From an uncultured Verrucomicrobiales bacterium (GTDB taxonomy: Bacteria; Verrucomicrobiota; Verrucomicrobiia; Verrucomicrobiales; Akkermansiaceae), in the NCBI GenBank assembly GCA_937128235.1, contig CAKZMG010000286.1, positions 1 through 49,972 of the forward strand: DNA of 49,972 nucleotides, given 5' to 3'. Within the stretch, counting starts at the first letter, position 1. Every line of letters begins with the position of its first letter. Below the pieces are notes generated by a model, which did not search any database, was not told where the DNA came from, and saw nothing but the letters and a program-made list of their open reading frames with translations. Position numbers and translations under genes: made by a program. Below are positions 6,249 to 41,439 of the stretch, piece after piece.

Positions 6249-7794
6249 CCGTAACCACTTTTTTATCTAAGAAATACTCTGCCAGAGCATCCCGAGTAGA
6301 TGTGTTCAGCATGGTTTTCTTCGCTGTTTTAGCTTGTCCTATTTTCCTGAGTGCCATCATTTTTTGACCGCCAGATTGCAAGTCATAACTGTTGAACATC
6401 ACTGTGATTCGCTGATCTAGTAATAGCAATTTCTCTCCCTTTTTGATCGCGACATATGTTTTGCCTTCTCTTACAGCGGTGAGTCCTAGCAGCTCTCTAT
6501 CAGACATTCTCGATAGCGCGGCTTCATTCATTACGGTCAGCATGTCTGCAACTGTCAGTTCGCATCTAGCTAGCATATTATCATACGGAATGAGCTTCCA
6601 CAGATCTCCCATGGTCACTTTTCCAGCCTTGAGCGTCCCTCCAAATGTTCCGTGGAAAATGGCATCTACTTTGATCTTTTGTTTCGCCGCGAGGTGATTA
6701 AACGCAGCAGCAAATAGCGGTAAGGTATTTTTGTTAGGTCCCTTCGCTTCAATATCTACCATGAGCTCTCCCACTTCTTTCTCAGTGTATTTAGTCGCAG
6801 TGTCCAAGTATGGCTGGGTATGCTGTAGCACAATGGGATCAAGCTCGAAACGATCATCCATCAGGTTACTCACGATGCGTTTCTTAAGAAGCTTACGAGA
6901 TTCTCTATCAAATGTGAGGTCCACTCTGCCGCATTGTATCCCATGATAACCAGCCTGAGTACAGATTACACCACCTACTTTAAAGTAAGACATATCCATA
7001 TGTGAATGCCCTCCGATGTAGAAATCCACTCCGCGCACCTTGCCTAAAATTTGATCCAGCGGGTTCGCGTAGTCGTATCTGAATTTGAAGCCCATGTGAC
7101 CTGTCACGATGATCGCATCAGCCTTCATCGCCTGTAGTTCATTGACGCTATTTTGCAAGCATTCCACCGGGTCTAGTGGCTTTACGCCCTTGAGTAAATC
7201 CGGGCTTAGCCAGTAGGGGAGGCCAGGAGTGACCAGCCCTACGATGCCTATTTTAAATCCATCCACCTCCTTCAGCATGAATGGAGCCACACGCTTCGCC
7301 AGCGGGTGATCTGCATTTCCCCATGCTCCAGGCTTTCGTCCTTTGTATTCGATGTTGGCAGTGAGGATAGGCATTTCAGAAAGATTCGCAGCCTCTTCCA
7401 CGGCCTCCAGCCCCCAGTCAAATTCATGATTCCCCAGCGTCCAAGAATCATAGCCAAGTTTGTTGATCAGCTCCACCATCACCTTGCCATTGCAAAGCTG
7501 GCTCACAGGCGTGCCTTGGTAGAGGTCTCCTACATCGACTAAAATGTTAGAAGGATTCATGTTTTGCCATGCGCGGATTTGCGTAGCGCATCTCGCTAAT
7601 CCACCGAGGCTCGTGTTCCCATCATAATCACTACTAGGGAGGATGTGACCATGCAGATCAGTGGTGTGAATAATTGAAATAGTTTTCACAGATGACCGCT
7701 GCACCGCAGCCTCCAGTGGGTCAAGCGGCATCGCTAATACTCCAGCCGCTGCTCCAGTCATCGTCTTAATTGCATTTCTTCTAGTATGATTCAT
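6235..7794 (-). CDS. Exported 5'-nucleotidase / cyclic-nucleotide phosphodiesterase-type metallophosphatase
   Basis: 519 residues. The N-terminus MNHTRRNAIK with a following small-residue stretch is a Tat-type export signal (twin Arg). The calcineurin-like metal-binding motifs are all present: TDLHGH, DVGDLYQG, GNHEFDWG, VTGHMG and GGHSHMD. A C-terminal 5'-nucleotidase domain covers about residues 330-500, with the substrate-stacking region around YDNMLARCE. The reaction is release of phosphate from nucleotides or UDP-sugars in the periplasm; exact specificity is not visible. Its 5' end and upstream DNA recur as a decayed copy at 40444-40600 (see repeats), so this gene was once part of a duplicated divergent module. 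Confidence 0.93.
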   Translation of the reverse strand: MNHTRRNAIKTMTGAAAGVLAMPLDPLEAAVQRSSVKTISIIHTTDLHGHILPSSDYDGNTSLGGLARCATQIRAWQNMNPSNILVDVGDLYQGTPVSQLCNGKVMVELINKLGYDSWTLGNHEFDWGLEAVEEAANLSEMPILTANIEYKGRKPGAWGNADHPLAKRVAPFMLKEVDGFKIGIVGLVTPGLPYWLSPDLLKGVKPLDPVECLQNSVNELQAMKADAIIVTGHMGFKFRYDYANPLDQILGKVRGVDFYIGGHSHMDMSYFKVGGVICTQAGYHGIQCGRVDLTFDRESRKLLKKRIVSNLMDDRFELDPIVLQHTQPYLDTATKYTEKEVGELMVDIEAKGPNKNTLPLFAAAFNHLAAKQKIKVDAIFHGTFGGTLKAGKVTMGDLWKLIPYDNMLARCELTVADMLTVMNEAALSRMSDRELLGLTAVREGKTYVAIKKGEKLLLLDQRITVMFNSYDLQSGGQKMMALRKIGQAKTAKKTMLNTSTRDALAEYFLDKKVVTVKPL

Positions 7795-7860
7795 CTAAAC
7801 AAAAGACACCTAATATCAACCGATTACAAGCGAAAAGATAAACCAATAGCGGATATTAAC
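7740..7860. repeat. Copy A of a duplicated divergent promoter module
   Basis: This stretch covers the first ~18 codons of the phosphatase gene (minus strand) and the DNA between it and the next plus-strand start. It matches the block at 40462-40580 closely, for example ATTGCATTTCTTCTAGTATG at both places and TAATATCA followed by GATTACA. The part from GATTACAAGC (7822) to ATATTA also matches 39550-39586. In all three copies GATTACA starts 77-78 bases before a plus-strand ATG that begins Met-Lys-Arg. Confidence 0.8.
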
Positions 7861-7898
7861 GTAAATGGAATCAACGTTATCTTGTTTCATCTCACAAC

Positions 7899-7994
7899 AT
7901 GAAGCGCACCATCATTTTCCTCACCCTTATCTACGTTGCTGGCGGACTTGCATATTCTTTTTCATTGCAAAGCTCGGCGATTCATTGCAAGTAA
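7899..7994 (+). CDS. 31-residue hydrophobic peptide; probable 5' remnant of a Wzz-like gene or a leader peptide
   Basis: ATG at 7899, TAA at 7992-7994. The product starts MKRTIIFLTLIYVAGGLAYS and is a basic N-end plus one membrane helix. It aligns with the starts of the two Wzz-like proteins encoded at 39627 (MKRICISLTIVALLGFLGY) and 40630 (MKRIFIFILVCFLGGVSY), and the shared upstream block lies at the same distance. The simplest reading is a paralogue cut short after its membrane helix. Because its stop is only 5 bases before the likely GTG start of the ABC-F gene, it could also now act as a translated leader that couples to that gene. Whether it is expressed is unknown. Confidence 0.55.
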   Translation: MKRTIIFLTLIYVAGGLAYSFSLQSSAIHCK

Positions 7995-7999
7995 CTGCC

Positions 8000-9607
8000 G
8001 TGCTTACTATTAGAAATCTTACCAAGACCGTGGGAGGAAGAACCCTCTTCGAAGAAGCGAAAATGACCATCAACTGGGGCGAACGTGTTGCCCTAGTGGG
8101 ACCAAATGGTGCTGGTAAATCCACGCTATTTAGAGTCATCCTCCAGCAAGAAGATCCAGATTCTGGGACGGCGGAAGTAGATGAATACGCGATCACAGGA
8201 TACCTCGCACAGGAGGCGGGAGACCCAGGAGAAGAGACGATTTTAGAAATCGCCATCGGCATCACACCAGAAGTAGCAAATGCCATCAAAGTGATGCGCG
8301 AATCAGAAAATAATGGCACCACAGACTCCAAGGAATACGCTGATGCACAAGACACATTTGACCTAGCAAATGGCTACTCGCTAGAACCAAAAGCTAAAAA
8401 AATTCTCGCTGGGCTAGGCTTCAAACAAGACCAAATGAACGAGCCAGCAAACACCTTCTCAGGAGGCTGGATCATGCGCGCTCACTTAGCCAGACTACTC
8501 GTCCAAGAGCCAGACCTCCTCATGCTTGATGAGCCTACAAACCACCTCGACCTCCTCTCACTACTATGGTTCCAGCGCTATCTCATGAACTACCCAGGAG
8601 CGCTTCTTATCATCTCGCACGATCGTGACTTTATGGATGAAATCATTGAGACCGTTTATGAGATCGATGAAACCAAACTCACTTCCTACACAGGAAATTA
8701 CAGCTCCTACCAAGAGCAGCGTGAGAAACGCTACGAGCAAAAAGTCCAGGCTTACCGCGCGGGTCAGAAGGAAATCGATCGCGTGCAAGAGTTCGTGGAC
8801 AAGTTCCGCGGAGTTGGCTCAAAGGCATCTCAGGTAAACGAGCGCATGAAGACCATCCAGAAGCTCAAGGACAAACTCGTGAAACCACTCGCTCCGCGCA
8901 AGGTTTTCAAATTCAACTTCCCGCAGCCGCCACGCTCAAACCAGATCGTAGCCGAGCTTTCCAAAGTCGACCAAGCTTATGGTGATAAAGTCATTTACAA
9001 AGGTCTAGACCTCACCATCGAGCGCGGCGACCGCATGGTGCTCGTAGGTCCGAATGGTGCTGGTAAATCCACGCTCATGAAAATCATCGCCGGTCACCTA
9101 GAGATCCAGGGTGGTAAAGTAGATGTAGGCTACGCGACTAAAATGGGATACTTTTCTCAGCACCGTGCGCTATCCATGAATGAGTCTAATACCGTCTTAG
9201 ACGAAGTCATGGCATCAAATGGCGAGCTCCGCGAAGACGAAGCCCGCTCGATCCTCGGTTCATTCTTGTTCCGCAAGAACGATGTCATGAAGCGCATCCG
9301 CGTTCTCTCTGGTGGTGAGAAATCTCGCCTCAATCTGGTGAAATTCCTAGTAGATCCACCTAACCTCCTCCTCATGGATGAGCCTACTACGCACCTCGAT
9401 ATTTTATCTATCGAAGCCCTAGTATCCGCCCTCAAGCAATACGCCGGAACGCTGGTCTTCATCTCGCACGATGTCCACTTCATCAGAAATCTCGCAGAAA
9501 CCACGCTCCACATCAACAACGGAACCGTCACCCGCTACACCGGCGGCTACGATTACTTCATCGAGAAAAGTGGCCTAGACGATGACCGCAGTGCAGTGAC
9601 GTCATAG
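8000..9607 (+). CDS. ABC-F family ATPase (ribosome-associated type)
   Basis: About 535 residues from the GTG at 8000. Two ABC domains without membrane segments: Walker A GPNGAGKST twice (8098-8124 and 9049-9075 region), signatures FSGGWIMR and LSGGEKSR, Walker B LLMLDEPTNHLD and LLLMDEPTTHLD, and a charged linker with EQREKRYEQKVQAYRAGQKE between them. That is the layout of ABC-F proteins, which act on the ribosomal E site in translation or antibiotic protection; the GGWIMR signature resembles the YheS/Uup side of the family. An in-frame ATG at 7865 would add 45 residues that look like random translation across the upstream ORF, so I prefer the GTG, which begins the conserved VLTIRNLTK. Position and phase relative to the small ORF suggest that its promoter came with the duplicated module. 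Confidence 0.93.
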   Translation: MLTIRNLTKTVGGRTLFEEAKMTINWGERVALVGPNGAGKSTLFRVILQQEDPDSGTAEVDEYAITGYLAQEAGDPGEETILEIAIGITPEVANAIKVMRESENNGTTDSKEYADAQDTFDLANGYSLEPKAKKILAGLGFKQDQMNEPANTFSGGWIMRAHLARLLVQEPDLLMLDEPTNHLDLLSLLWFQRYLMNYPGALLIISHDRDFMDEIIETVYEIDETKLTSYTGNYSSYQEQREKRYEQKVQAYRAGQKEIDRVQEFVDKFRGVGSKASQVNERMKTIQKLKDKLVKPLAPRKVFKFNFPQPPRSNQIVAELSKVDQAYGDKVIYKGLDLTIERGDRMVLVGPNGAGKSTLMKIIAGHLEIQGGKVDVGYATKMGYFSQHRALSMNESNTVLDEVMASNGELREDEARSILGSFLFRKNDVMKRIRVLSGGEKSRLNLVKFLVDPPNLLLMDEPTTHLDILSIEALVSALKQYAGTLVFISHDVHFIRNLAETTLHINNGTVTRYTGGYDYFIEKSGLDDDRSAVTS

Positions 9608-9623
9608 CCTAGATAACAACCTG

Positions 9624-12458
9624 CTACTGATCATCGACTTTTAGTCTATAGAAGCGGGATTTGAATCCGACCGTAGAATCAGAAAACAGGAACTCGCCAG
9701 GTGCTGTTTCAGAAATACTGGTGCCAGAGCTAACTCGCCATAAGCTCTCTCCACGGAGGCGGCTAGCTACGGTTTTCCAGTTTCCTGCCGCTAGATCTTC
9801 TGAAGCCTGAACGCATAATGAAAGACCAGATACATTTGCTCCTACAAAGAGCTCTCCTTGGAAAATAGCTCCATTTGGTGATGATGATAATGTGCCTAAG
9901 CTTAAGCCTGAGTATTCTAGCCCATTGCTCACACCGTCTCCGTCGAAGTCCTCGTCCACACCACTATTCGTTGAGCCAGGAACAATTCCTAGTGTCGATC
10001 TGACATAATTTTCATAGCTAGGCGCTAGCTGAGTAATCCAGTCACGAATGAGGGCTTGGTCAGCTAATGACAGAGCATCTGTAGGACGCATCCGTGCACC
10101 ATGTTGAGGATTAGGGCTATTTATTTTCTCGAATAAATAACTCCTAGAAGTGCTTCCAGGTTCAACGAGTTTCACCCCTACTGCGAAGATGCTAGGTTGA
10201 TTTACTAGTTCACCATAGCTATTCCCTGGGGTTAAATCTAGCCCACCATTATTCGTGGTGTTAGCCCGGTGGCAGCCAGTGCAGTTGGCACTGAAAATAT
10301 TTTGAATCACAGCATAATTCACGGCGGGAGTGTATGGCTGAGCAGAGAGATCATCGCCAGCTTGCGCTCCACCACCCCACTCAGATAGGACAACAGAAGC
10401 ATCGATATCCGCACCAGCTTGAGTCACTACTGACATAGTCCTAGTTGCGTAGCGGTCACGTCCGGTGTCCTCTGCAAATGTTAGCTCCAGAGTAGCTCCT
10501 ACACCCGTAGTGGGTATGGGGATGGAAAAGTAACCTAAGTCATCACTGGTGACACGATGGAGGATACCTGTAGCTGGTATTTTAGAAGAAAGAAGGTAGT
10601 CTCTGGCACCTGCAAACGGGAATGGTGACCCTGCTGAACTCACACCTACATCGACGACTGCGGGTGCTCCACGGTGTGATAGCACCTGCCCTGAAACCGA
10701 TGTGGTAGAAACATAAAATTCCTCGTGGACTACATTGATCGAACCAAGAGCAACCGTTACTCCACGAGTCACAGATTGGAAAACTGGGGGAGTAGCGTTA
10801 TCTGTTTTCATCACAAATCCTGCTGAGGTAAGTGGCAGTGAGACTGATCCAGTATAGGTTCCATCAGCCATTGTAGTTAGCTGATTCCCATTGGCTCCTG
10901 ATCCTCCTGAAAATGAAAGAGGCGTGGAGCCATCTGCCTGAAAAAAAGAAATAGTGAATGTGGATGTCACAGGAACAGGAGGTAAGGTTCTCCCATCATG
11001 GATTTCTAACATCAGAGAAACGGGCGTGCTGGTTGTGGCAGCTAAGGGTTGCTGGGCATCATCTGTCAGACCCACGCTGTCAGTCACCGTGAGGGTTACC
11101 GTGTATGCTCCTGGGGAACTATAGGTGTGACTCGGATTCTGAAGTGTAGAACTATTTCCATCACCAAAGTCCCAATGCCATGCTGTCAGGTTATTGGTGC
11201 CTTGAGTGGATGTGTCTGTAAAGGAGACTATAAAAGGAGTTTCCCCAGTTCCCGTAGCGGGATTAGTAGTGAATGATGCAACAGGCGGATTTCCAACTGC
11301 AAACCGATAGCGTCTCAGAGGAAACCAGCCTGCCAGAGAAGCGTCACCTTGTGTCTGAGCGTAGTAGAGATGACCATCCGCAGCTAAGTGTAAGTCCATA
11401 GCAGTCGCATCAGAATCCCAGTGACTAGCTCCGCCTCCAGAAGGAATAGCCGTCAGCGTATCCCAATTAGTGCCTTGGGGATTTGTGCTATCAGACAGAG
11501 TATAGCGGCTGATCCCGCTCAGCCAGTTAGCCACATAAAGTGTGGGATTAGCGTTGTGAGCAAATGGCCCGCTAGGCGCTATTTCTATGCCAACAAGTGA
11601 TGCTGACTCGGTATGTAACACTTTAAACAACGGGGTATTGACGGTTAAGAAACCACCATTGTCATTTCCATTCCATAGACCATTACCTCCCGCTCGCACC
11701 ACTGACACACGATCAGTAGAATCGCCATTCTCTGAGACGTAAAGTGTGTCTGCTCGTGTAGGGTGGAAGGCAAATCTGAATGGATTTCTCAGACCCGAAG
11801 CCCAGACTCTGGAGCGAACAGAATTTGGCACTGAATTGTAATGAGGATTATCTGCAAGCCCGAGCCCTGTAGAAGTGTCCACCCGCAGAATTTTCCCAAC
11901 ATAGCTATCTATATTCTGAGGCAGCATGTTATCTGGGTAGATCTGATCATCATCACCCAGCGAGATAAAAATAGCAAATGGATCTAGCGGGTTGATCCCA
12001 ATGTCACCAGCTTTATGAAATGTGACATTTCGCGGTAGTCCTGAGAGCAATACAGTTTCAGAGCCAGCTATGATGCCATTAAACGTGCCATTCATCGTAT
12101 AGCGAACCAGGCGCTGGTCCGTAGCCGTAGTGTAGAAAAGATAGATGAACCTATTATTAGCATGATCTGGATCTACTTCTAAACCTAGCAACCCAGCCTC
12201 AAGTGCTGAATCGACGTTTGAAGTAATATCTAACAGAACAGCAGGAGGCTGAAACCCGCCATTTCCGTCAGGCTCAAACAGCAACAAGCGACCTTGTTTT
12301 TCCGTTACATACATTCGCCCAGTTGAGTCAAATGCTACCTTCGTTTTGCCATTTCCAGATTGAAGATGATCCACTGCGAAATTACTATCCACTGGAGCAG
12401 CGAACGAGCATAAAATGAAAATGAGATAGAGTAAAATGCTAGATAATAATCGATTCAT
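9624..12458 (-). CDS. Secreted PQQ-type glucose/sorbosone dehydrogenase with PKD and haem-c domains
   Basis: 944 residues with an N-terminal signal peptide (LSSILLYLIFILCSFAAP). Residues ~25-390 form the six-bladed soluble sugar-dehydrogenase propeller (GLLGLEVDPDHANNRFIYLFY, VWASGLRNPFRFAFHP). Next comes a PKD domain at ~393-475 (WHWDFGDGNSSTLQNPSHTY), one or more Ig-like or carboxypeptidase-regulatory-like domains, and a cytochrome-c-like segment with CTGCH near residue 725. The C-terminus carries a DEDFDGDGVSNGLEYSGL element, common in verrucomicrobial exported proteins, and a short beta domain. The likely job is oxidation of sugars or aldehydes outside the cytoplasmic membrane, with electrons passed to the attached haem. 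Only one CxxCH is seen. No neighbour on the same strand shares a transcript with it. Confidence 0.9.
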   Translation of the reverse strand: MNRLLSSILLYLIFILCSFAAPVDSNFAVDHLQSGNGKTKVAFDSTGRMYVTEKQGRLLLFEPDGNGGFQPPAVLLDITSNVDSALEAGLLGLEVDPDHANNRFIYLFYTTATDQRLVRYTMNGTFNGIIAGSETVLLSGLPRNVTFHKAGDIGINPLDPFAIFISLGDDDQIYPDNMLPQNIDSYVGKILRVDTSTGLGLADNPHYNSVPNSVRSRVWASGLRNPFRFAFHPTRADTLYVSENGDSTDRVSVVRAGGNGLWNGNDNGGFLTVNTPLFKVLHTESASLVGIEIAPSGPFAHNANPTLYVANWLSGISRYTLSDSTNPQGTNWDTLTAIPSGGGASHWDSDATAMDLHLAADGHLYYAQTQGDASLAGWFPLRRYRFAVGNPPVASFTTNPATGTGETPFIVSFTDTSTQGTNNLTAWHWDFGDGNSSTLQNPSHTYSSPGAYTVTLTVTDSVGLTDDAQQPLAATTSTPVSLMLEIHDGRTLPPVPVTSTFTISFFQADGSTPLSFSGGSGANGNQLTTMADGTYTGSVSLPLTSAGFVMKTDNATPPVFQSVTRGVTVALGSINVVHEEFYVSTTSVSGQVLSHRGAPAVVDVGVSSAGSPFPFAGARDYLLSSKIPATGILHRVTSDDLGYFSIPIPTTGVGATLELTFAEDTGRDRYATRTMSVVTQAGADIDASVVLSEWGGGAQAGDDLSAQPYTPAVNYAVIQNIFSANCTGCHRANTTNNGGLDLTPGNSYGELVNQPSIFAVGVKLVEPGSTSRSYLFEKINSPNPQHGARMRPTDALSLADQALIRDWITQLAPSYENYVRSTLGIVPGSTNSGVDEDFDGDGVSNGLEYSGLSLGTLSSSPNGAIFQGELFVGANVSGLSLCVQASEDLAAGNWKTVASRLRGESLWRVSSGTSISETAPGEFLFSDSTVGFKSRFYRLKVDDQ

Positions 12459-12661
12459 AGGTTTGTTGTGCTTAGTTCAGAGAATGGCGTAAAAACAATA
12501 TTCCACTTTAGGTTACATTGTATATACAGATATTAAAGATGCTATACAACTCTTAATTTGATAAATTAATCATAAATAAGCTCTCGTAGAAGAGAAATCA
12601 CTTGACGAAACAACAAGAGTAAAGAATCTTCCTCATGCAGCTGAAAATTTCGGCAGCCCAG

Positions 12662-12667
12662 TATAAT
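12662..12667 (+). promoter_or_regulatory. Candidate -10 element (TATAAT) for rpoD
   Basis: A perfect TATAAT 46 bases before the chosen rpoD start; no convincing -35 lies 16-18 bases upstream. A TTGACG at 12602 is too far to pair with it. The 255-base gap from 12459 to 12713 shows nothing else beyond AT-rich sequence. Confidence 0.4.
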
Positions 12668-12713
12668 GGTAGAATTGTCTCTACGTCTAAACATCATCTC
12701 TAAAATCATTCTT

Positions 12714-14717
12714 ATGGCAGCAAAAAAATCGGCTAAAAAAACAGCCAAAAAAACGACTAGCAAGAAGGTAGCCAAAAAGGCGCCTGCAAAAAAAGCAGCC
12801 AAGAAAGCAGCAAAAAAAGCGGTCAAGAAGGTTGCCAAAAAAGCAGTAAAAAAAGCGGCTCCTAAAAAAGTTGCAAAGAAGGTGGCAAAGAAAGCGGCGA
12901 AAAAAACTCCTAAAAAAGTTGCAAAAAAAGCAGTAAAAAAAGCGGCTCCTAAAAAAGCAGCTAAGGTTGCTAAGAAAGCCGCGAAAAAAGCCGCACCAGC
13001 TAAGGCAACTAAGAAAAAGCCAGCCAAGAAACTTTCCAAACTAGAAGCCCTACTTGCTAAAGAGGCTGAGGAAAAAGCACAACGTGCTAGCAAAAAGAAA
13101 GCTCCTAAGAACCGCATCGACACTCCAGAAATGCAGGAGAAAGTGCGTGAGCTCATCAAGCTCGCTAAGGAACAAGACTACCTCACTTACGATGACATCA
13201 ACGAGATTCTACCGAATGACATGGTGGAGCCATCAGATGTGGAGGCCATCCTTGAGCGTCTTCGCTCTATGGAGTTTGACATCATCGATGCCTCAGAAGT
13301 GGATCGTTACCGCACCAACAAAAAAGAAGGCGTCGATGCCAACACGACCAAAACTGAGCAGAAGCTAGACATCCTAGATGATCCAGTCCGCATGTATCTC
13401 AAGCAGATGGGTCAGGTTCCACTCCTCACACGTGAGCAAGAAGTTGAAATTTCTAAGCGTATCGAGGATGCTGAACTCACTGTGCAGAAGCATCTTCACC
13501 GCTTTGGATTTGTTTCTCAATCATACCTCGATCTCGCTGATAGCTTGATGAAAGGTAAGGAGAGATTTGACCGAGTGATACTGGACAAGAAGATCGAGAG
13601 CCGTGAGCGCTACATGAAAATGCTCCCTAAACTCTGTGACCAACTACGCCAGTGCCACGAGGACACAGACCTCATTTTCCGTAAACTGCACGCCAAGACA
13701 CCTCGCGGCAAACTCAAACTAGAAGCTGAACTCGAAAAGCAACTCGCGTCTATCGCTAAAATTTATGGACGTTTCTATTACAAGCAAAAAGTTGTAGAGG
13801 ACTTCTGTGAAGTAGTGGAAGACTACCAGAAAAAGTTCTGGAAGTTTAACCGCAAGCTCACTGCCAACCCGAAGGATAAAGAATTTGAAACTAAGCTCCG
13901 CGAAGCTCAGCAGATCTCTTGGCACACCGCAGATAATTTCAACGCAAATAATAAAGATCTACGCAACTGGATCAAAAAAGCTTACGGAGCTAAGACTGAA
14001 ATGGTCGAGGCTAACCTCAGACTCGTTATCTCCATCGCTAAGAAATACACCAACCGTGGACTCTCATTCCTAGACCTCATTCAGGAAGGAAATATGGGTC
14101 TCATGAAGGCTGTGGAGAAGTTTGAATACCGCCGTGGTTATAAATTCTCAACTTACGCAACATGGTGGATTCGCCAGGCGATCACCCGCTCTATCGCGGA
14201 TCAGGCAAGAACGATCCGTATTCCAGTGCACATGATCGAGACCATTAACAAGCTCATGCGCGTGCAAAAGCAACTCGTCCAAGAGTATGGACGTGAGCCT
14301 ACTCCAGACGAGATCGCAGACGAGATTCACCTACCTGTAGAGCGTGTCCGTGCGGTTCTCAAGATGGCTCAGCAGCCAATCTCACTCCAGGCACCAGTCG
14401 GTGACTCAGATGACACCTCATTCGGTGACTTCATCGAGGATAAGGCAGCTGACAACCCGATGGAAGAAGCTGGATTCGCGATGCTTAAAGAAAAAATCGT
14501 TGATGTGCTAGACACTCTAACAGAACGCGAGCGCGAAGTGTTAGAGCAGCGTTTCGGACTCAAGGACGGCTACAGCAGAACGCTGGAAGAAGTGGGACGT
14601 CAGTTCCAAGTCACCCGTGAGCGTATCCGCCAGATCGAGGCCAAGGCACTCCGTAAGATGCGCCACCCGACCCGTATTAGAAAGCTCGAAGGCTTCATCG
14701 AGCTACCGAATATGTAA
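12714..14717 (+). CDS. rpoD: Housekeeping RNA polymerase sigma factor RpoD with Lys/Ala-rich N-terminal extension
   Basis: 667 residues from the ATG at 12714. The first ~110 residues are almost entirely Lys, Ala, Pro and Thr in KKAAKK/KKAVKK-type repeats, like the tails of bacterial histone-H1-like proteins. Then follow sigma region 1.1 ([18 protein letters not shown]), 1.2 ([21 protein letters not shown]), a long non-conserved insert, region 2 with the -10-reading helix ([19 protein letters not shown]), region 3 ([20 protein letters not shown]) and region 4 ([20 protein letters not shown]). This is the primary sigma factor. In-frame codons reach back to 12666, but the Lys-rich tail starts at MAAKKS and the TATAAT lies just upstream, so 12714 is preferred. 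A strong terminator follows. Confidence 0.96.
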
Positions 14718-14731
14718 TTATTCTTTCAACC

Positions 14732-14770
14732 AAGCCCTAGCTTCTGTGTAACGCAGACTAGGGCTTTTTT
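14732..14770 (+). terminator. Rho-independent terminator after rpoD
   Basis: AAGCCCTAG (14732-14740) pairs with CTAGGGCTT (14758-14766); the stem extends inward with TCTG/CAGA, and a run of six T closes it (14765-14770). Confidence 0.9.
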
Positions 14771-14792
14771 AGACTATGTAAGTTGAGCCAGA

Positions 14793-16100: not shown

Positions 16101-16109
16101 TTCACCACA

Positions 16110-29021: not shown

Positions 29022-29022
29022 T

Positions 29023-32896: not shown

Positions 32897-32913
32897 AAGG
32901 CACTCATAATTTT

Positions 32914-33612: not shown

Positions 33613-33628
33613 TTTTAACAATTTTATT

Positions 33629-34399
33629 ATGCTAGCGAAAAGAATTATCCCCTGCCTCGATGTGACCAATGGCAGAGTGGTGAAAGGGACGAATTTTGTG
33701 GATCTGGTCGATGCGGGAGATCCAGTTGAGAGCGCGATTGCTTATAATGAGCAGGAAGCGGATGAGCTAGTATTTCTGGACATCACTGCCTCAAGTGACG
33801 GCAGAGAAACGATGGTGGATGTGGTGCGACGTACAGCCGAGAAATGCTTCATCCCGCTCACAGTCGGAGGTGGTATTCGCACGGTGGAGGACATGCGCAA
33901 GATGCTCCTAGCAGGTGCAGATAAAGTAGGAATGAACACCGCGGCGGTAGTGAATCCTTCAGTGATAGATGCTGGGGCGAAAGCGTTCGGTGATCAGTGC
34001 ATCGTGGTAGCTATCGATGCCAAGCGTGATGAAAATGGCAAATGGGGAGTCTTTACTCATGGTGGCAGAAAGCCCGTAGGACTGGATGCCGTGGAGTGGG
34101 CTAGAGAAGTTTACAACAGAGGTGCCGGAGAAATTTTACTAACAAGCATGGATGCAGATGGCACTAAGGATGGCTACGACATTGAGCTAACAGCAGCCGT
34201 GAGCGAGGCAGTAGGTATCCCTGTCATCGCCAGTGGAGGTGCTGGAAATCTTCAACACATGGTGGATGTCCTAGAACAAGGAAAAGCGGATGCAGTTTTG
34301 GCTGCCAGTATTTTCCATTTCGGTCAACATTCTGTGCGAGAAGCGAAAGAGTATTTTGCCGAAAAAGGCATACCAGTCCGCCCAATGTTTACTCATTAA
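33629..34399 (+). CDS. hisF: Imidazole glycerol phosphate synthase, cyclase subunit
   Basis: 256 residues, typical length. (beta/alpha)8 barrel with the HisF hallmarks: [18 protein letters not shown] (catalytic D11), [37 protein letters not shown] (catalytic Asp), [20 protein letters not shown] and [15 protein letters not shown]. With HisH it makes imidazole glycerol phosphate and AICAR in histidine synthesis. No other his gene lies in the window, so the pathway genes are dispersed. Confidence 0.97.
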
Positions 34400-34433
34400 C
34401 ATCCATAAGGAATTGATGTATTTGATAAAAGCA

Positions 34434-34461
34434 TTGATTTTCTGAAAACTGACTAAATAAT
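34434..34461 (+). promoter_or_regulatory. Promoter TTGATT-N16-AATAAT
   Basis: -35 TTGATT (34434-34439), 16 bases, -10 AATAAT (34456-34461). Transcription should start about 6 bases before the ATG at 34474, leaving almost no leader. Confidence 0.45.
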
Positions 34462-34473
34462 CACTCCATTCAT

Positions 34474-35601
34474 ATGGCTGAAGAACAAAGACATTTATAC
34501 CACTGCGACTGCTGTGGAGAGTTGTTTAAATCAAAACAACGTGCGATAGAAGACATCAAATGTGGATCATGCGGTGAGCATCCCGTGAAACCAAAATTTG
34601 CGGCAGTATCAGAAATGCCCGCCCTCGATAAACACGACAAGAAAAGCAAACATGGCGTTCCAGGCATGGATGAAGCGGATCTCTTCTCAATGAAGAAGAA
34701 GCAACAACGCAAAAACTGGACCATCATCTGTCTCATGTGGGTGGTAGGTCTTGCGGTAATCGCATTGATGGCAAACAGAATGAACAATAAGGCTAAGGCA
34801 GCTGCCATCGCTGACGTTGAATTAGATGATGCAGATAAAGCCTATGTTATTAGAAAAAATGACGCTTATCAAAAGTGTAAGTCACGCTTCGTAAGATTTG
34901 CCAGAGTGTCCGTTGTTCAATCTAAATCATCACATATTCTCAACGGTAGTGAACTGGTTCTAGACATTAATCGCTACTACCGAGGGAACTTGATGAGAAA
35001 TGATCTCGCTTCTTCAGAAATCATCAAATTTGACCTCATTGAATCGGGGGATCAGCCAAAAGCTGCCGCGCTTTTCCGCTACACACAAAGAGCTACCCAA
35101 ACAGCCAAACCATATGATTTTGAAGTTCTTTTCTGGAAAAAAGGTGATGACTGGTTTATTGACTGGCCTCATTTCGTAAGGCTTGGAGAGGTTAACTGGT
35201 TCAGATTTTGTGAGGATAAAAAGAAAAACTCACCGAAACGATTCAAACTCTATGCAAGAGAGAGGAGTGCCAATTCGCTCGATTTAAGCGGATACGATGA
35301 ATACAAACTTTCCGAAGCCTACAACAACAGTGTTCTGCCTAGTCAGCTATCGATATCCGTTTTTGTCAAACATCAGACGAAGCTCAAGACACAGCTTACC
35401 AATAAATTTAAAGAGCTACGTGAGCGCAGAGAGAAAAAAATAGTAACCGAAGAGGTTATAGGTTCCTTTGACCGTCCCAAAAATAGATTGCTCAGGCTCG
35501 ATGTCACCGTTGATTTCGAGGAAATCGAAGGTGAAACTCAACTAGTGCTCAAGGAAATTCACGGCTTCAACTGGGAAACCCCACCTGCGAAAGAGAACTA
35601 G
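34474..35601 (+). CDS. Zinc-ribbon membrane protein of unknown function
   Basis: 375 residues. Residues 9-35 hold a zinc ribbon (Cys at 11, 14, 30 and 33; CDCCGELF and CGSCGEHP). A basic Lys-rich segment follows, then one membrane helix (WTIICLMWVVGLAVIALMA, ~76-96). The C-terminal ~270 residues should face the periplasm and show an alpha/beta layout with YDFEVLFWKKGDDWFIDW. A cytoplasmic zinc ribbon joined to an outside domain is a common verrucomicrobial pattern. I do not recognise the outer domain. It converges with aroE over a short hairpin. Confidence 0.7.
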   Translation: MAEEQRHLYHCDCCGELFKSKQRAIEDIKCGSCGEHPVKPKFAAVSEMPALDKHDKKSKHGVPGMDEADLFSMKKKQQRKNWTIICLMWVVGLAVIALMANRMNNKAKAAAIADVELDDADKAYVIRKNDAYQKCKSRFVRFARVSVVQSKSSHILNGSELVLDINRYYRGNLMRNDLASSEIIKFDLIESGDQPKAAALFRYTQRATQTAKPYDFEVLFWKKGDDWFIDWPHFVRLGEVNWFRFCEDKKKNSPKRFKLYARERSANSLDLSGYDEYKLSEAYNNSVLPSQLSISVFVKHQTKLKTQLTNKFKELRERREKKIVTEEVIGSFDRPKNRLLRLDVTVDFEEIEGETQLVLKEIHGFNWETPPAKEN

Positions 35602-35624
35602 TGCATTTTAAATAAAAACGCACT
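35600..35624. terminator. Possible bidirectional terminator hairpin
   Basis: AGTGCATTTT pairs with AAAACGCACT around a short AT loop and covers both stop codons of the convergent genes. T-rich on both strands. The stem is short, so confidence is modest. Confidence 0.4.
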
Positions 35625-36510
35625 AAGAGATAGCCTCTCTCATTAGCTTGGTATCAGGTGCTACACCTGTCCATATTTCAAATGAAATCGCACCCTGGTG
35701 AACTAACATCGACAAGCCATTAGAGATAGCCGCACCGCGATCACTAGCTGACTCTAACAGCTTAGTGCATGGTGGACTATAAATCGCATCATACACTTTG
35801 TGTTTAGATGTTATTGACTCCACTGGAAATGGCAATTCATCCTCAGGCTTCATGCCCTGGGATGTCGCATTGATAATAATATCCACGTCATCGGCGATCA
35901 TTTTTAAGTCAGAAACACTATTACCCAGTGCCTTCAACCTAGTCTGATCTGATGCAGTATTTTCAATAAATTTCTCCACCAGTAACTCCGCCTTGCTGAC
36001 CGTTCTGTTAGATAAATATAATCTAGCGCAACCTTCACTATTTAGCTGCGTGGCAATCGCTTTTCCAGCTCCGCCACCTGCACCTAGAACGAGCACCCGT
36101 GCTCCCTTTACTCTGAGTTTTAGGTCCTCCTCAAGCGCCTTGACCAGACCTGGGCCATCTGAGTTATCACCCATGATCTTGCCTTCATGAAAATGGATCG
36201 TGTTCGCCACTCCGAGTAACCTCACTGAGTCAGATAAAGTATCACAGCACTCCATCGCCTCCAGCTTATGGGGGATAGTCACGTTACAGCCAATAAACCC
36301 TAATTTCTGCATCAGAGAAAATGACTCAGCCACACTACCCGGCTCTATTTCTAACCGAATATAAGTCACATCCAGACCCAGCGCATCCAGCGCAGCTTGG
36401 TGCATTTCTGGTGAGGCAGAATGAGCGACTGGATAGCCTAGAACTGCCAACTTCGCATTCTCAGGCAGCGATCTATCTCGCAGATCATCGATGGTATAAA
36501 CGTGCTTCAT
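35623..36510 (-). CDS. aroE: Shikimate dehydrogenase
   Basis: 295 residues. Shikimate-binding N-domain: AVLGYPVAHSASPEMHQAAL (Ser-x-Ser site) and NVTIPHKLEAME (catalytic Lys). Nicotinamide-binding domain: VLGAGGGAGKAIATQL and NRTVSKAELL, then NATSQGMKPED and GLSMLVHQGAISFEIWTG. It reduces 3-dehydroshikimate with NADPH in aromatic amino acid synthesis. Its start overlaps the gltX stop by four bases (ATGA), so the pair is one operon with coupled translation. Confidence 0.96.
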   Translation of the reverse strand: MKHVYTIDDLRDRSLPENAKLAVLGYPVAHSASPEMHQAALDALGLDVTYIRLEIEPGSVAESFSLMQKLGFIGCNVTIPHKLEAMECCDTLSDSVRLLGVANTIHFHEGKIMGDNSDGPGLVKALEEDLKLRVKGARVLVLGAGGGAGKAIATQLNSEGCARLYLSNRTVSKAELLVEKFIENTASDQTRLKALGNSVSDLKMIADDVDIIINATSQGMKPEDELPFPVESITSKHKVYDAIYSPPCTKLLESASDRGAAISNGLSMLVHQGAISFEIWTGVAPDTKLMREAIS

Positions 36511-37829
36511 GATAGCTCACTCACCGCTCTACGCACTCTGCGGACAGACTCCTCTTGTCCCAGTATTTCTAAAATTTCACCTAGATCAGGTCCGCCACCC
36601 ATCCCGCTCAATGCAACTCGTGTTGGGAACATTAGCTGACCGGGCTTAGCTCCATTTTCCTTAGCGGTAGCTCCGATGATTCCCTTCGCCTCAGACCAAT
36701 CTGTTAGACTAGAAAACGCCTCCGCTAATTTTTCTAACAACTCGCCAGCCTGAGCATTATTTTTCACCTTCTCCATCACCTCAGTATCAAACGGATAATC
36801 TGCATTGGTATAGAAAGAAATCATCTTAGGAACTTTAGTAAGCAGATCCACCTTCTCTTGCACCGATGCCGCTATCCTTTCATAGCTCCCATCCACAGGC
36901 ACGCCAGCCGCTTCCACATACGGAGCTGCTGCTGTCGCAAATTCCTGCCCACTAAGCTTCAGCAAATGCTGCTGATTCACCCAGGCACATTTTTTCTCAT
37001 CATACTTAGCTCCTGAGCGGTTCACAGCGGACAAATCAAACTTTTCCACCAATTCCTGCAGAGCAAAAATCTCCTCATCATCCTTAGGCGACCACCCTAA
37101 CAGGGCGATGTAATTATTCACCGCATCAGAAATAAATCCGTCCTCTTTATAACCATCAACACGCGCCCCAATATCACGCTTAGACATCTTAGAGCCATCC
37201 TTATTTAAGATCAGCGGAATGTGAGCAAACTTCGGCGGCTCCACACCAAATGCCTCAAATAACTGCAAATGCTTCGGAGTATTCATCAAGTGGTCTTCAC
37301 CACGGATCACATGCGTCATCCCCATCTCAATGTCATCCACCACATTCACAAAGTGGAACACAAACGTCCCATCAGAACGCCTCACCACCATGTCCGGATT
37401 ATTCGCCTTTCCAGTCTTAGGATTCACCGCCTGATCATTGTAATCGATCGTTACATCACCACAGACCAAGTCATGGACGGTGACCGCCTTACGCTCAAAT
37501 CTAAATTTCCAAGCCCCCTCATCCTCATACACGCGATCTGCCGCTACCAGCTTATCAAACCACTTCTCATAAATCGCCTGCCGCTGAGACTGATACACTG
37601 GCTCCTCATCAAAATCCATCCCCAGCCACTCCAAGCCACCAAAAATAGCCGCCCTAGCCTCCTCCGTATTCCGCGCCTCATCCGTATCCTCCACACGGAG
37701 AAAAAACTTACCCCCATGCTTGCGCGCAAACAGCCAGTTAAACAACGCAGTCCTCGCACCCCCAGTATGCAGATAACCAGTGGGCGATGGAGCGAAACGT
37801 GTACGGACAGATTTTTCAGAATGACTCAT
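36507..37829 (-). CDS. gltX: Glutamyl-tRNA synthetase
   Basis: 440 residues, slightly shorter than the usual ~470-500. Class I motifs are intact: FAPSPTGYLHTGGARTALFN (HIGH equivalent) and KDGSKMSKRDIG (KMSKS equivalent), plus RVEDTDEARN and HVIRGEDHLMNTPKHLQLFEA. Charges tRNA(Glu), and probably tRNA(Gln) as well, since gatB is present (non-discriminating form; inference). One of the over-represented DNA words (GGTAAGTTTT) falls in the codons for GGKFF. Upstream of aroE with a four-base overlap. Confidence 0.97.
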   Translation of the reverse strand: MSHSEKSVRTRFAPSPTGYLHTGGARTALFNWLFARKHGGKFFLRVEDTDEARNTEEARAAIFGGLEWLGMDFDEEPVYQSQRQAIYEKWFDKLVAADRVYEDEGAWKFRFERKAVTVHDLVCGDVTIDYNDQAVNPKTGKANNPDMVVRRSDGTFVFHFVNVVDDIEMGMTHVIRGEDHLMNTPKHLQLFEAFGVEPPKFAHIPLILNKDGSKMSKRDIGARVDGYKEDGFISDAVNNYIALLGWSPKDDEEIFALQELVEKFDLSAVNRSGAKYDEKKCAWVNQQHLLKLSGQEFATAAAPYVEAAGVPVDGSYERIAASVQEKVDLLTKVPKMISFYTNADYPFDTEVMEKVKNNAQAGELLEKLAEAFSSLTDWSEAKGIIGATAKENGAKPGQLMFPTRVALSGMGGGPDLGEILEILGQEESVRRVRRAVSELS

Positions 37830-37879
37830 GCCGCAAAGTCAATCTCACCACCTGTAAAAAGCAACGCGAAATTTAACTT

Positions 37880-37907
37880 TTTACACCCTCTCCCATATCT
37901 GTAGGAT
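37880..37907 (+). promoter_or_regulatory. Promoter TTTACA-N16-TAGGAT
   Basis: -35 TTTACA (37880-37885), 16 bases, -10 TAGGAT (37902-37907). The expected start of transcription is at or next to the ATG at 37914, so the mRNA would be leaderless. Confidence 0.5.
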
Positions 37908-37913
37908 GCCAGC

Positions 37914-39212
37914 ATGAAGAAAATAGCAGCCCATTGGCAAATCATCATCGCCCTCATAGCCGCAGTCATCATCGGCTCGCTACTCAAGAAATTCGATGAC
38001 GCACCATGGCTCCAATCCTTCCTCAAAATATGCGATCTTCTCGGTGACCTCTTCCTCCAGGCACTCAAAATGATCATCGTCCCACTCGTCGTCTCCTCCA
38101 TCATCGCCGGCCTAGCAAGCCTCGCCGGATTCGATGGCTTCAAGCGCATGGGTCTAAAAACCCTAGGCTTCTACCTCCTCACCACCCTCAGCGCAGTCGT
38201 CCTAGGGCTACTCATTGTCAACACCATCCAGCCCGGACTCAAAGACGGAAAGCCAAATGCAGAGCTCCGCCAAGTCTTCGATGAAGCACCCGCCCAAGCT
38301 GATGACTCCGCCAAGGAAAAATTTGCCCCAGACCGCCAAGCCAAAGCCAAAGACTGGACCGCTATCTTCAAGCGTATGCTCCCCTCAAACATCATCAAAG
38401 CCGGAGCAGAAGGTCAGCTGTTAGGTCTCCTCGTCTTCTCCCTCATGTTCGGCATCGCCATGACCCAGTTCCCGCCAGACCAGATGCAGCCCATGCGAGA
38501 TTTTTTCCAAACACTCAATGACGTGATGATCCGCATCACCCAGTGGATCATGGTTTGTGCACCACTCGGTATCTTCGGCATGATCACAGTCACCGTTTAC
38601 AAAAGCGGCGCAGAAGTCTTTCAGCAGCTTGCTCCCTACTTCTTCACCGTCCTCATCGCCCTCGCCCTCCACATGTTCCTCGTCCTTCCACTACTCTTAA
38701 AATTAGTAGCAGGCATTAATCCCATCAACCATTTCAAGGCGATGAAAACCGCACTCCTCACCGCCTTTTCCACCTCCAGCTCCTCCGCCACCCTCCCCGT
38801 CACCATGCGCTGCGTGCAGGACAATGCCGGCGTCAGCAAGAAAACCGCCAGCTTCACACTCCCACTCGGAGCCACCGTAAACATGGATGGCACCGCACTC
38901 TACGAATGCATCGCCGTCATCTTCGTCGCCCAGGTCATGGGACTAGAAATGGCTTTCGCCGCCCAGATGCTAGTTGTCATCTCTGCCCTACTCACCAGCA
39001 TCGGAGTAGCCGGAGTTCCCTCTGCCTCCATGGTCGCCATCCTCATCATCATGAACAACTCCGGCATCCCCGGAGCAGACAACGCCATCCTCGCACTCTT
39101 CGCAGTGGACCGCCTCCTAGACATGTCCCGCACCGCAGTAAACGTCTTCGGAGACTCCTGCGCAGCCGTAGTCATCGCCAAATCAGAAGGAGAAACTCTT
39201 TATCAGGAATAG
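37914..39212 (+). CDS. Dicarboxylate/amino acid:cation symporter (DAACS family)
   Basis: 432 residues, mostly membrane. The GltPh/GltP marks are all present: the re-entrant loop SSSSATLPVTMRC, the NMDGT motif in GATVNMDGTALYECIAVIF, and the second hairpin with the substrate-binding stretch DRLLDMSRTAVNVFGDSCAAVV (Asp, Arg, Asn). It couples uptake of glutamate, aspartate or C4-dicarboxylates to Na+ or H+. An insert of about 50 residues near residue 110-155, rich in charged residues, lies outside the membrane. The exact substrate is not readable. Confidence 0.94.
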   Translation: MKKIAAHWQIIIALIAAVIIGSLLKKFDDAPWLQSFLKICDLLGDLFLQALKMIIVPLVVSSIIAGLASLAGFDGFKRMGLKTLGFYLLTTLSAVVLGLLIVNTIQPGLKDGKPNAELRQVFDEAPAQADDSAKEKFAPDRQAKAKDWTAIFKRMLPSNIIKAGAEGQLLGLLVFSLMFGIAMTQFPPDQMQPMRDFFQTLNDVMIRITQWIMVCAPLGIFGMITVTVYKSGAEVFQQLAPYFFTVLIALALHMFLVLPLLLKLVAGINPINHFKAMKTALLTAFSTSSSSATLPVTMRCVQDNAGVSKKTASFTLPLGATVNMDGTALYECIAVIFVAQVMGLEMAFAAQMLVVISALLTSIGVAGVPSASMVAILIIMNNSGIPGADNAILALFAVDRLLDMSRTAVNVFGDSCAAVVIAKSEGETLYQE

Positions 39213-39309
39213 AGTTACCAGTTACCAGGTGCTCACCGAAAAAAGCCCCAAACGGCACACGCATCAACTTAGACATTTCGCATACATTGGTCCAATGTTA
39301 AGCGATCTT

Positions 39310-39514
39310 ATACCATGTAGTGATTGAAATCGGACAATAGCCAGAGTGAATCCTTTAAAAATCAAGACGCGATGAAGGAGTGATGCGGGCATCACGACTG
39401 AAGAGAAACGCAGATTTTTAGAGGATTCGCCTGGCACTCTATAAGAAATGCGAAGCACAATTTACCACACTCACTAAACAAATCTATTGTCCGATATCAA
39501 TTGCGGAATGGTAT
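39310..39514. repeat. Nested inverted-repeat element of 205 bp (MITE-like or structured RNA)
   Basis: Outer arms 39310-39340 and 39484-39514 match inverted at 25 of 31 bases (CTATTGTCCGAT core). Inner arms GAATCCTTTAAAAATC (39348-39363) and GATTTTTAGAGGATTC (39413-39428) match at 15 of 16, and a perfect central hairpin GTGATGC-GG-GCATCAC sits at 39380-39395. In the 414-base gap 39213-39626 this is flanked by a tandem TTACCAG (just after 39212) and a palindrome ACATTGG-T-CCAATGT (39284-39298). No ORF. Confidence 0.75.
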
Positions 39515-39532
39515 TATTCGTTTGTCGTAACA

Positions 39533-39626
39533 ACAATACCCGATCAAATGATTACAAGCACAAAGATGAACTGATAGAGAATATTAGGGTGAACGAAATT
39601 GAGTATGGATTGTCTGATTTAGCACG
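39533..39626. repeat. Copy B of the duplicated promoter module
   Basis: From GATTACAAGC (39550) to ATATTA (39586) this matches 7822-7858 at most positions, and the stretch around TGAACGAAAT (from 39591) is shared with 40593-40603. GATTACA is 77 bases before the Met-Lys-Arg start, as in copy A. Copy B lacks the phosphatase remnant that A and C have. Confidence 0.65.
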
Positions 39627-40432
39627 ATGAAGAGGATTTGTATTAGTTTGACTATTGTTGCATTACTCGGTTTTTTAGGGTACCGATTATTCTCGAAACC
39701 TTCCTACTCATGCATGTTCGTTATTGAACCGTATATACCTAAGAATGAGTTTTATGATGTAGATGATGTGGTCAAATACTCAATTGACGAGCATCAGAAT
39801 ATTATTAGTGGACGTGGAAATATTAGAAATGCGATTCACAGCTACAGCTTAGACAAACTTTATGGTGAAAATGCTATTGCTCTGCGTAATGAGATAGAAA
39901 AATCGATTGAGACTACTCAGCTTTCTAGAGGAAAAAAATAGCTGTTAAGGTATTTGCTGATTCAAAAGAAAAAGCACAACAAATTTGCTATGCTCTCTTG
40001 GATAGTTACAGGTGCATTTTACTTGATGAAAAAAAGCGACAAGCTAATCAATTGAAGAAAAAATTCGGGTCCAAGCGTGAATATCAAGAGCATGAAGTTG
40101 TTAAGGCGCGAAATAAATTAAAAGCACTGGCTTCTGAATTTGGTATGGATTTTGTAGATCCTAATCCAACTGTTCATTCGCGTTATTATTCTCATAGAGA
40201 ATTTAAGCGTGAAATTATAGAAGAACTCACGCCAGTGCAGATCACTCAGTATGAAACAGAGATTGATCTGTACTTAGCGGAAATTAAATTTTTAGATAAA
40301 ATTAAAGCAGCTGAGTTTAATCGTTGTCTCCATGAAGGATCTCTAGATCCTTTTGTTATTCATGGCAATGAAGTTCCCGGAGCGGTGTCTAAGTTAATGT
40401 GGAAAAGGAAAGAGTCTCTAAATGAAAAATAA
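39627..40432 (+). pseudogene. Wzz-like membrane protein, interrupted by a frameshift (pseudogene or programmed -1 shift)
   Basis: The first frame, 39627-39941, gives 104 residues (MKRICISLTIVALLGFLGY helix, then an outer domain ending SLDKLYGENAIALRNEIEKSI). It stops at TAG right after GGA AAA AAA. A -1 shift at A-AAA-AAA joins it to the frame that runs on to 40432 and gives 268 residues, matching the 271 of the paralogue at 40630. Without the shift the second frame would have to start at 39998. The joined product aligns with the paralogue along its length (KAQQICYALLDSYR against QAQKINYAIVQSYM), resembling the outer domain of polysaccharide chain-length (Wzz/BY-kinase) proteins: one membrane helix and a helical hairpin. 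The family assignment is tentative. Confidence 0.7.
39932..39938 (+). other. Slippery heptamer A-AAA-AAA before an in-frame TAG
   Basis: Zero-frame codons are AAA AAA TAG. A tandem -1 slip re-pairs both tRNAs without mismatch, and reading continues ATA GCT GTT. Seven A's could equally be a decay site or a polymerase-slippage site. No strong downstream hairpin is obvious by eye. Confidence 0.5.
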
Positions 40433-40443
40433 TGATTAGTTCT

Positions 40444-40524
40444 TTAATTGGTAACCGGCATCGGCCAAACACCAGCCGTCGCTACAGTTATCGTCTTCAT
40501 TGCATTTCTTCTAGTATGATTCAT
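40444..40524 (-). pseudogene. Remnant of the phosphatase gene 5' end
   Basis: Reading from ATG at 40524 on the minus strand gives MNHTRRNAMKTITVATAGV and then stops at codon 27. It matches the first 20 codons of the intact gene at 7794 (MNHTRRNAIKTMTGAAAGV) at most positions, including the twin-Arg. Everything downstream of the signal peptide is gone. With copy C below it shows that the phosphatase and its promoter were duplicated. Confidence 0.8.
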
Positions 40525-40629
40525 GCAAACAAAATCCACTTAATATCAGATGATTACAGTCGAAAAGATGGAGTTTTGCAGTAAAATCCTTTTGAACGAA
40601 ATGAGTAATAAATTGTCATAATCATGTAT
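40462..40629. repeat. Copy C of the duplicated promoter module
   Basis: Matches copy A from within the phosphatase codons through TAATATCA and GATTACA (40552) and on to GAAAAGATG. GATTACA lies 78 bases before the Met-Lys-Arg ATG at 40630. A TTGAAC (40592) with CATAAT (40617) could be a promoter whose transcript starts at that ATG. Confidence 0.75.
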
Positions 40630-41439
40630 ATGAAACGTATCTTCATTTTCATCCTAGTTTGCTTTCTTGGAGGGGTCTCTTATCTAAAATTTATCAACAA
40701 GCTGGAGTCATGTGAAACAGTAATCGAGATACCGGGAATGGGTTCTTCATCAGCTGATAAAAATAGAAATATTTTTTCAAGATCCTACATCAAGCCAGAA
40801 CAAGGATATGGATTTAGTAGTGATGCTACTATCAGTAGAGCCATTCAGGACTACAAGTTAGATAAGTTATTTAAAATTGAAGCTAAAGAGCTCAAAACGC
40901 AAATTTCCAACAGGATAGAAACCTCATTAGACGGAGATACAGATTTAATAAAAATCAAAACTTATGCGCTGACGAAAGATCAGGCTCAGAAAATAAATTA
41001 TGCGATTGTCCAAAGTTACATGAAACGTAAGGCAGAAAAGCATGTAAAAAGAAGGTTAGAATCCGTTAGAGCATTTAAGGATAAATTAAGAATCCAGGAA
41101 GACAAAGTGGAAGATCACAAAACAAGACTCTATGCTTTATCTAAGAAATTTGGAATCACATACACATCATCGACAGACTTAATAAGAAACAGAGAAGAAT
41201 CGCTTAAGAAATCAGCAGAAAGGGGTGATCTAATATTGCTTGCTGAGGAGAAGCCACGCATGATCAAGGTAGCAGAGGACTATGAAAGAGAATTAGCAAT
41301 ACTAAAAGCGATACATGCTGCTATGCGTGGTGAAATGTTCACAGAAAAATCATCAAAAAACAATAGCGTAAAAACACATGAAAAAGGTTGGACGCTAGAG
41401 ATTGAGGCTATGATGGAAACAAGAAGGATATGGAAATGA
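40630..41439 (+). CDS. Wzz-like membrane protein (intact paralogue)
   Basis: 269 residues from the ATG at 40630; a second ATG at 40624 adds two. The ATG at 40630 begins MKRIFIF as in the paralogues and sits at the conserved distance from the repeat. One N-terminal membrane helix (IFIFILVCFLGGVSYLKF), then SDATISRAIQDYKLDKLFKIEAKEL, DTDLIKIKTYALTKDQAQKINYAIV and a long charged coiled coil (KAEKHVKRRLESVRAFKDKLR to ~240). The order resembles the periplasmic part of Wzz-type chain-length regulators, but the usual second C-terminal helix and any kinase domain are absent. Role in polysaccharide assembly is therefore only suggested. Confidence 0.7.
   Translation: MKRIFIFILVCFLGGVSYLKFINKLESCETVIEIPGMGSSSADKNRNIFSRSYIKPEQGYGFSSDATISRAIQDYKLDKLFKIEAKELKTQISNRIETSLDGDTDLIKIKTYALTKDQAQKINYAIVQSYMKRKAEKHVKRRLESVRAFKDKLRIQEDKVEDHKTRLYALSKKFGITYTSSTDLIRNREESLKKSAERGDLILLAEEKPRMIKVAEDYERELAILKAIHAAMRGEMFTEKSSKNNSVKTHEKGWTLEIEAMMETRRIWK

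Follow-up and report, generated by a model that had tools for sequence, protein, structure and literature searches.

What kind of event could place the same short upstream block ahead of three Wzz-like gene starts on one contig? The question is raised by a 49,972-nt stretch of DNA from an uncultured Verrucomicrobiales bacterium of the Akkermansiaceae, here called the window, which is contig C286 of a 3.86-Mb genome in 347 contigs with a completeness of 94.6%. The original prediction had read positions 7740-7995 (locus A), 39533-40432 (locus B) and 40444-41439 (locus C) as three decayed copies of one divergent module, in which the 5' end of a phosphatase gene on the minus strand and a Wzz-like gene on the plus strand lay on either side of a shared promoter. 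The comparisons described here suggest that the three loci are unequally related, and that they form a mosaic and not three copies of one module. The explanation favoured, to which a probability of roughly 55% may be given, is that old tandem paralogues of the Wzz fold have in common a promoter resembling those of extracytoplasmic function (ECF) sigma factors, and that one recombination event moved the phosphatase flank between their leaders. The features concerned are as follows.

6235-7794, minus strand: intact metallophosphatase / 5'-nucleotidase family gene at A, 519 aa (PF00149, E 2.7e-11; PF02872, E 1.5e-5)
7723-7839, no strand assigned: segment of A common with C, comprising the phosphatase 5' end, the gap and the block 7822-7839 (82% identity)
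7862-7886, plus strand: altered counterpart at A of the promoter-like element, TAAAT-N17-GTT (ungapped alignment to B)
7899-7954, plus strand: Wzz-like stub at A of about 18 codons, MKRTIIFLTLIYVAGGLA (first 24 nt 19/24 identical to C)
39550-39626, plus strand: leader of B, with block 39550-39567 and promoter-like TGAACG-N15-TGTC at 39590-39614 (sequence comparison)
39627-40432, plus strand: Wzz-like gene of B in two open pieces, with a frame break at the A7 run 39932-39938 (homology)
40447-40524, minus strand: phosphatase 5' stub at C, 26 codons read, similarity over about 24 (alignment to A)
40552-40629, plus strand: leader of C, with block 40552-40569 and promoter-like TGAACG-N15-TGTC at 40593-40617 (sequence comparison)
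40624-41439, plus strand: intact gene at C for a stand-alone Wzz-fold protein, 271 aa, Met-Lys-Arg ATG at 40630 (predicted fold, homology)

The spacing reported originally was confirmed at all three loci, GATTACA beginning 77 nt ahead of the Met-Lys-Arg ATG at A (7822 and 7899) and at B (39550 and 39627) and 78 nt ahead of it at C (40552 and 40630). Base-by-base alignment gave a more uneven picture than one block met three times over: A 7723-7839 and C 40453-40569 share 117 ungapped nucleotides, 96 of them identical (82%; E 5.8e-27), which span phosphatase codons 1 to about 24, the gap and the GATTACA...AAAGAT block and establish that copying between A and C occurred, whereas B shares only a leader of about 77 nt. 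Between the block and the start codon, the leaders of A and B (39 of 64 columns) and of B and C (40 of 65) are related, none of 1000 shuffles matching either score, whereas that of A and C (37 of 72) was matched by 676 of 1000 shuffles and is thus at chance. Local alignments of the leaders concurred (0, 1 and 863 of 1000 shuffles for A-B, B-C and A-C, respectively), and the stub of A further resembles the start of a Wzz-like gene in the genus relative G058 (8 of 1000 shuffles). Over the 26 phosphatase codons compared between A and C, codon positions 1, 2 and 3 differ at 5, 4 and 7 sites, a pattern that is not a strong sign of protein constraint. A stub that C could do without matches A at 82%, but the leader next to it does so no better than chance, a mosaic that suggests one copying event with its breakpoint in or beside the shared block. 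The further copies of the block anticipated elsewhere in the genome did not turn up in the assembly, where the next match after A to a query of 40500-40700 had an E-value of 0.675, and among 145 family genomes, this one included, three match at E<=0.01, namely the genome itself and two others, over 34 and 46 nt. GATTACA was likewise not found as a general motif of the family on the gene strand within 150 nt upstream of ten other stand-alone genes (the paralogue C40 of the same genome, the gene of G058 and eight of G066); one copy on the opposite strand lies 79 nt before G066_212d.

Each of A and C does hold one whole gene and the 5' end of the other, as the original prediction had it for the 519-aa phosphatase of A, the 271-aa Wzz-like protein of C and the 26-codon stub beside the latter, and the coding starts of A and C agree at 19 of 24 nt. 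Both facts would fit the duplication of a divergent phosphatase/Wzz-like unit, after which A lost the body of the Wzz-like gene and C that of the phosphatase, B being a third copy. This scenario is nonetheless rather unlikely, as it has to set an A-C leader at chance beside a dispensable, 82%-identical stub, which duplication of a whole unit fails to explain unless the leader of C evolved much faster than the stub. Nor was a phosphatase end detected at B, where the upstream flank, taken without an inserted element described below, matches A and C no better than shuffles do (488 and 481 of 500). The Wzz-like gene of B is indeed frameshifted, with a single break at the A7 run, past which the open frame 39938-40432 carries the homology on; its products and the protein of C are 26 and 28% identical in two aligned stretches, and B and C are best regarded as old paralogues, not recent copies.

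The ancestral pair expected in relatives, an intact phosphatase gene on the minus strand divergent from a Wzz-like gene on the plus strand, was likewise not encountered. The sample comprised 110 phosphatase loci (the present one, 29 family loci and 80 on named contigs), 98 of them distinct because 12 of the 80 duplicate family loci, and no Wzz-like open reading frame (ORF; at least 60 aa, profile match at E<=0.01) lay beside the phosphatase at any of the 110 in the fetched flanks, which cover about 1.5 kb or up to 6 kb and extend more than 1 kb upstream in 100 cases. Many of these loci belong to distant relatives, with identity down to 26%; the titles of the 80 named contigs mostly give Verrucomicrobiota or one of its subgroups, in several cases Akkermansiaceae or Roseibacillus. 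At E<=1e-60 the phosphatase is present in 60 of the 145 family genomes, own included, and was not found in the 11 other genus genomes searched. In G058 the same row of genes stands beside an Exo_endo_phos gene as at C, and the place of C is taken by a truncated convergent Wzz-like gene of 120 aa (start MKRTLITLTIATLIAIAGYY; family profile E 8.1e-5) without a phosphatase, for which reason the Wzz-like gene at this place is probably older than the phosphatase stub. Repeated duplication of a divergent unit followed by complementary loss is therefore not upheld by the missing phosphatase end at B, the 110 loci, the 11 genus genomes or G058.

Downstream of the stub, locus A runs into an ABC-F ATPase gene, for which capture of the Wzz-like promoter had been proposed.

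7955-7999, plus strand: native leader of the ABC-F gene, 45 nt (near-identical in three genus relatives, weaker in two)
8000-9607, plus strand: ABC-F ATPase gene with a GTG start (orthologues 91-96% identical in G022, G087, G050, G058 and G066)

The upstream regions were aligned for nine genus relatives with an orthologue. In G022, G087 and G050 the 45 nt that run up to the start codon are nearly unchanged, in G058 and G066 the likeness is weaker, and in G009, G073, G032 and G041 they are not evident; upstream of them no evident similarity was seen among the nine. The conservation of this leader implies that the foreign block ends at about 7954 and that the Wzz-like stub numbers about 18 codons (7899-7954), not the 31 counted before, the remainder being ABC-F leader. 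Capture of the promoter finds some encouragement in the block lying directly upstream and in the stub ORF ending 5 nt before the ABC-F start; it is highly improbable given that the gene's own leader exists in relatives without the block and that TGAAC and GTC are altered at A to TAAAT and GTT, and the ABC-F gene appears not to have needed a new promoter. Within the leader, two TTCATTGCAA copies stand about 22 nt apart. Four genomes (G000, G022, G087 and G050) also have a 9-codon frame there that begins with TTG and stops at one and the same TAA just ahead of the ABC-F gene; G058 and G066 do not. A structured RNA at A was considered and rejected, the sole Rfam match in 7600-8100 reaching 13.7 bits against a gathering score of 76.

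The label given to the Wzz-like proteins was borne out by the predicted fold. The model of C, built on an alignment of eight sequences (mean pLDDT 78.5, pTM 0.64), gave 23 Foldseek matches in the PDB at E<=0.001, all of which are Wzc, Wzz, WzzE or KpsMT-KpsE entries (best E 1.7e-7; TM-scores by query length 0.32-0.60); a search of the PDB by sequence profile gave five matches at E 0.21 or worse. Sequence homology (E 6.6e-21) also links C to the N-terminal part of a 726-aa kinase with Wzz (PF02706) and AAA_31 domains that the same genome encodes, and in Pfam the kinase domain AAA_31 is absent from C. The first piece of B reached Pfam Wzz under the cut-off (E 0.067), and Wzz is not among the families matched by the eight short proteins. 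These genes are best modelled as stand-alone relatives of the N-terminal (periplasmic) half of the Wzz-type tyrosine kinase. Scanned by hydrophobicity, nine of ten unbroken short proteins (C, C40 and seven of eight from G066) and the first piece of B have one predicted membrane segment, G066_212b having none above threshold, and all ten kinases scanned have two (ten of 11, the G087 kinase being left out). In eight of the ten short proteins (C, C40, G066_212a, 212b, 212c, 35a, 35b and 164) the C-terminal end comprises a Trp and, after it, a short charged tail, at the point where nine of the ten kinases shown pass from a Trp into the second helix; G066_212d and 229 are without this end, and that of B differs.

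Set against Wzc-type tyrosine kinases, polysaccharide co-polymerases (PCP) of class PCP-2a, the short proteins by predicted fold share an anchor helix, a periplasmic domain and a long helical hairpin, besides the homology to the genome's own kinase, whereas they are without the second membrane helix and the kinase domain and end, in eight of ten, in the charged tail. With the O-antigen chain-length regulators Wzz, WzzE and FepE (PCP-1) and with KpsE they have in common the predicted fold and the want of a kinase; however, Wzz/WzzE/FepE and KpsE are two-helix proteins, whereas for the short proteins a single helix is predicted and Pfam Wzz gives no significant match. Of the hallmarks of a polysaccharide co-polymerase, they thus display the hairpin fold and neither the two flanking helices nor PF02706. 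Among the 12 genus genomes, matches of other than kinase length came from G000, G058 and G066, the last with stand-alone Wzz-like genes in tandem; the same search matched a sequence with a stop on C75 of G066 and a 775-aa frame of G009, and some shorter Wzz-like frames occur in other genera of the family. Nothing evidently on short Wzz-like genes stood among the papers listed in literature searches, and the subject may still be in print.

Across 300 nt, two of the G066 contigs with tandem arrays, C212 and C35 (L092 and L093), are 95% alike, from the end of an upstream nadA-like gene through a terminator-like hairpin and the leader into the start of the Wzz-like gene; beyond that they diverge, and past about 15 codons their Wzz-like genes differ strongly. 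The first 77 nt of both are identical to the last 77 nt of C129 (L219), which resembles an assembly-graph branch. The arrays may thus belong to strains that differ at a single locus, and they were left out of account as evidence of a separate duplication; the labels nadA and assembly branch are our interpretation.

The promoter-like element TGAAC-N17-GTC was found by comparing the leaders of B, C, C40 and G058, which formed the discovery set. Its longer form, TGAACG-N15-TGTC, occurs nine times in 3.86 Mb as against four for the reversed control, and four of the nine sites stand ahead of genes of the family, namely those of B, C, C40 and the kinase, of which the kinase had no part in motif discovery; of the other five, one is inside an ORF, one is 284 nt before a 93-aa ORF and three are without clear context. 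The two exact matches in the window are those of B and C. A strict form, TGAAC-N16-18-GTC within 200 nt upstream, precedes nine of 11 genus kinases, those of G073 and G032 being the exceptions, and three of nine stand-alone genes of G058 and G066 (212a, 35b and the G058 gene, the upstream regions of 212a and 35b being nearly identical). In 188 sampled genes of at least 150 aa, taken from genus loci that were chosen around the Wzz-like/kinase family and are hence enriched for it, the strict motif precedes 12, of which 11 belong to that family and one does not. According to PMC4153023, ECF sigma factors recognize AAC at -35 and CGT at -10, and the ECF factor AlgU controls alginate; the element is similar to such promoters in the AAC of its putative -35 part and in a conserved trinucleotide about 17 nt further on. 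It is most simply read as an ECF-sigma-type promoter, and the kinase and the three paralogues B, C and C40 are probably co-expressed.

An element common to distant paralogues and kinases would fit ancient leaders that respond to one regulator and have stayed similar under selection, the Wzz-like genes not having been copied among themselves of late. Where B is compared with A and C this is possible; as an account of all three loci it is unlikely, being insufficient for A and C, where the 82% identity over phosphatase codons dispensable in C goes unexplained.

Under the favoured explanation of old paralogues and a single flank transfer, B and C would be old tandem paralogues and C40 a third, whose products have retained a membrane anchor with the periplasmic helical hairpin but neither the second helix nor the kinase domain. 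The homologies, the mosaic, the predicted fold and the enrichment of the motif are what the comparisons show; the route of recombination, the sigma factor and the function go beyond them. We infer that about 100 bp of phosphatase 5' flank were carried from one Wzz-like leader to another when recombination extended into the GATTACA...AAAGAT block. All but about 18 codons of the Wzz-like gene of A would have disappeared, and these now adjoin the leader native to the ABC-F gene; at C, the phosphatase stub alone would remain, or nothing more was ever there. The proteins would be located next to the full-length kinase in the inner membrane and adjust the export or chain length of a surface polysaccharide, a modulator role that is expected from the predicted fold and from what is known of co-polymerases.

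Several observations weigh against this explanation. The first 24 coding nucleotides of A and C, 19 of them identical, were matched by 0 of 1000 shuffles (1 of 1000 with the query started one base later), and the coding starts of A-B and B-C are at chance (848 and 228 of 1000); the former, with one gene whole at each of A and C, is friendly to the duplication of an intact unit. The position of the breakpoint is limited by short alignments. Pfam Wzz PF02706 finds no match in C. As to the promoter, the strict motif is missing at six of the nine stand-alone genes of G058 and G066 (212b, 212c, 35a and perhaps 212d being inside arrays), and a scan of the window with one mismatch gave four matches, a number reached by 36 of 100 shuffles and so not above chance. 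The motif of C40 lies inside the longest ORF (TTG at 880) and is upstream only if the start is the ATG at 943, while those of the kinases overlap what we read as a terminator-like hairpin of the preceding gene and could be partly terminator features. Independent cases are confined to the kinases and G066, the others having been used in discovery; the whole leaders of A, B and C have no match above shuffles in that of G058; and the trinucleotide is GTC here as against the CGT given in PMC4153023.

A wider proposal, which is tentative and on balance doubtful, is that of a small regulon in which diversified subunits of the Wzz fold, single-anchored and kinase-free, share an ECF-type promoter with a full-length Wzc-like kinase and mix into the kinase ring as interchangeable surface-polysaccharide modulators, their upstream regions being shuffled via the leader blocks. 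Were these readings true, a single-anchor Wzz-like subunit with a charged tail would join the known two-helix co-polymerases, the promoter-like sequence could predict genes co-expressed with surface-polysaccharide kinases in this group of Verrucomicrobiota, and a flank swap by recombination in a shared control region could mimic the decayed copies of a module.

Two further features adjoin B and C.

39311-39513, no strand assigned: element of 203 bp upstream of B resembling a miniature inverted-repeat transposable element (MITE), TACC...GGTA, flanked by TTA on either side, with inverted repeats of 31 bp (81% complementary)
41460-42221, minus strand: Exo_endo_phos gene convergent to C, with the same neighbour in G058 (domain match, gene order)

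At B itself, the A7 run might act as an on/off switch of the gene by varying in length; otherwise the gene could be a pseudogene or the break an assembly error. A hairpin related to that of the kinase was also met in another setting: L098 4981-8631 (G000 contig C106) encodes a 1216-aa vWA/YfbK-type protein in which a stretch of 239 residues matches the periplasmic hairpin of the Wzc-like kinase from the same genome at 79% identity, and this chimera recurs in a homologue of G095 (partial, at a contig edge), the vWA homologue of G009 having no match there. The MITE-like element matches 17 other places in the genome, the weakest over 26 bp, and three nearly full-length copies at 99-100% identity suggest recent movement. 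TTA or TAA flanks both sides of most copies examined, and such a TNA duplication presumably points to a transposase of the IS5 type.

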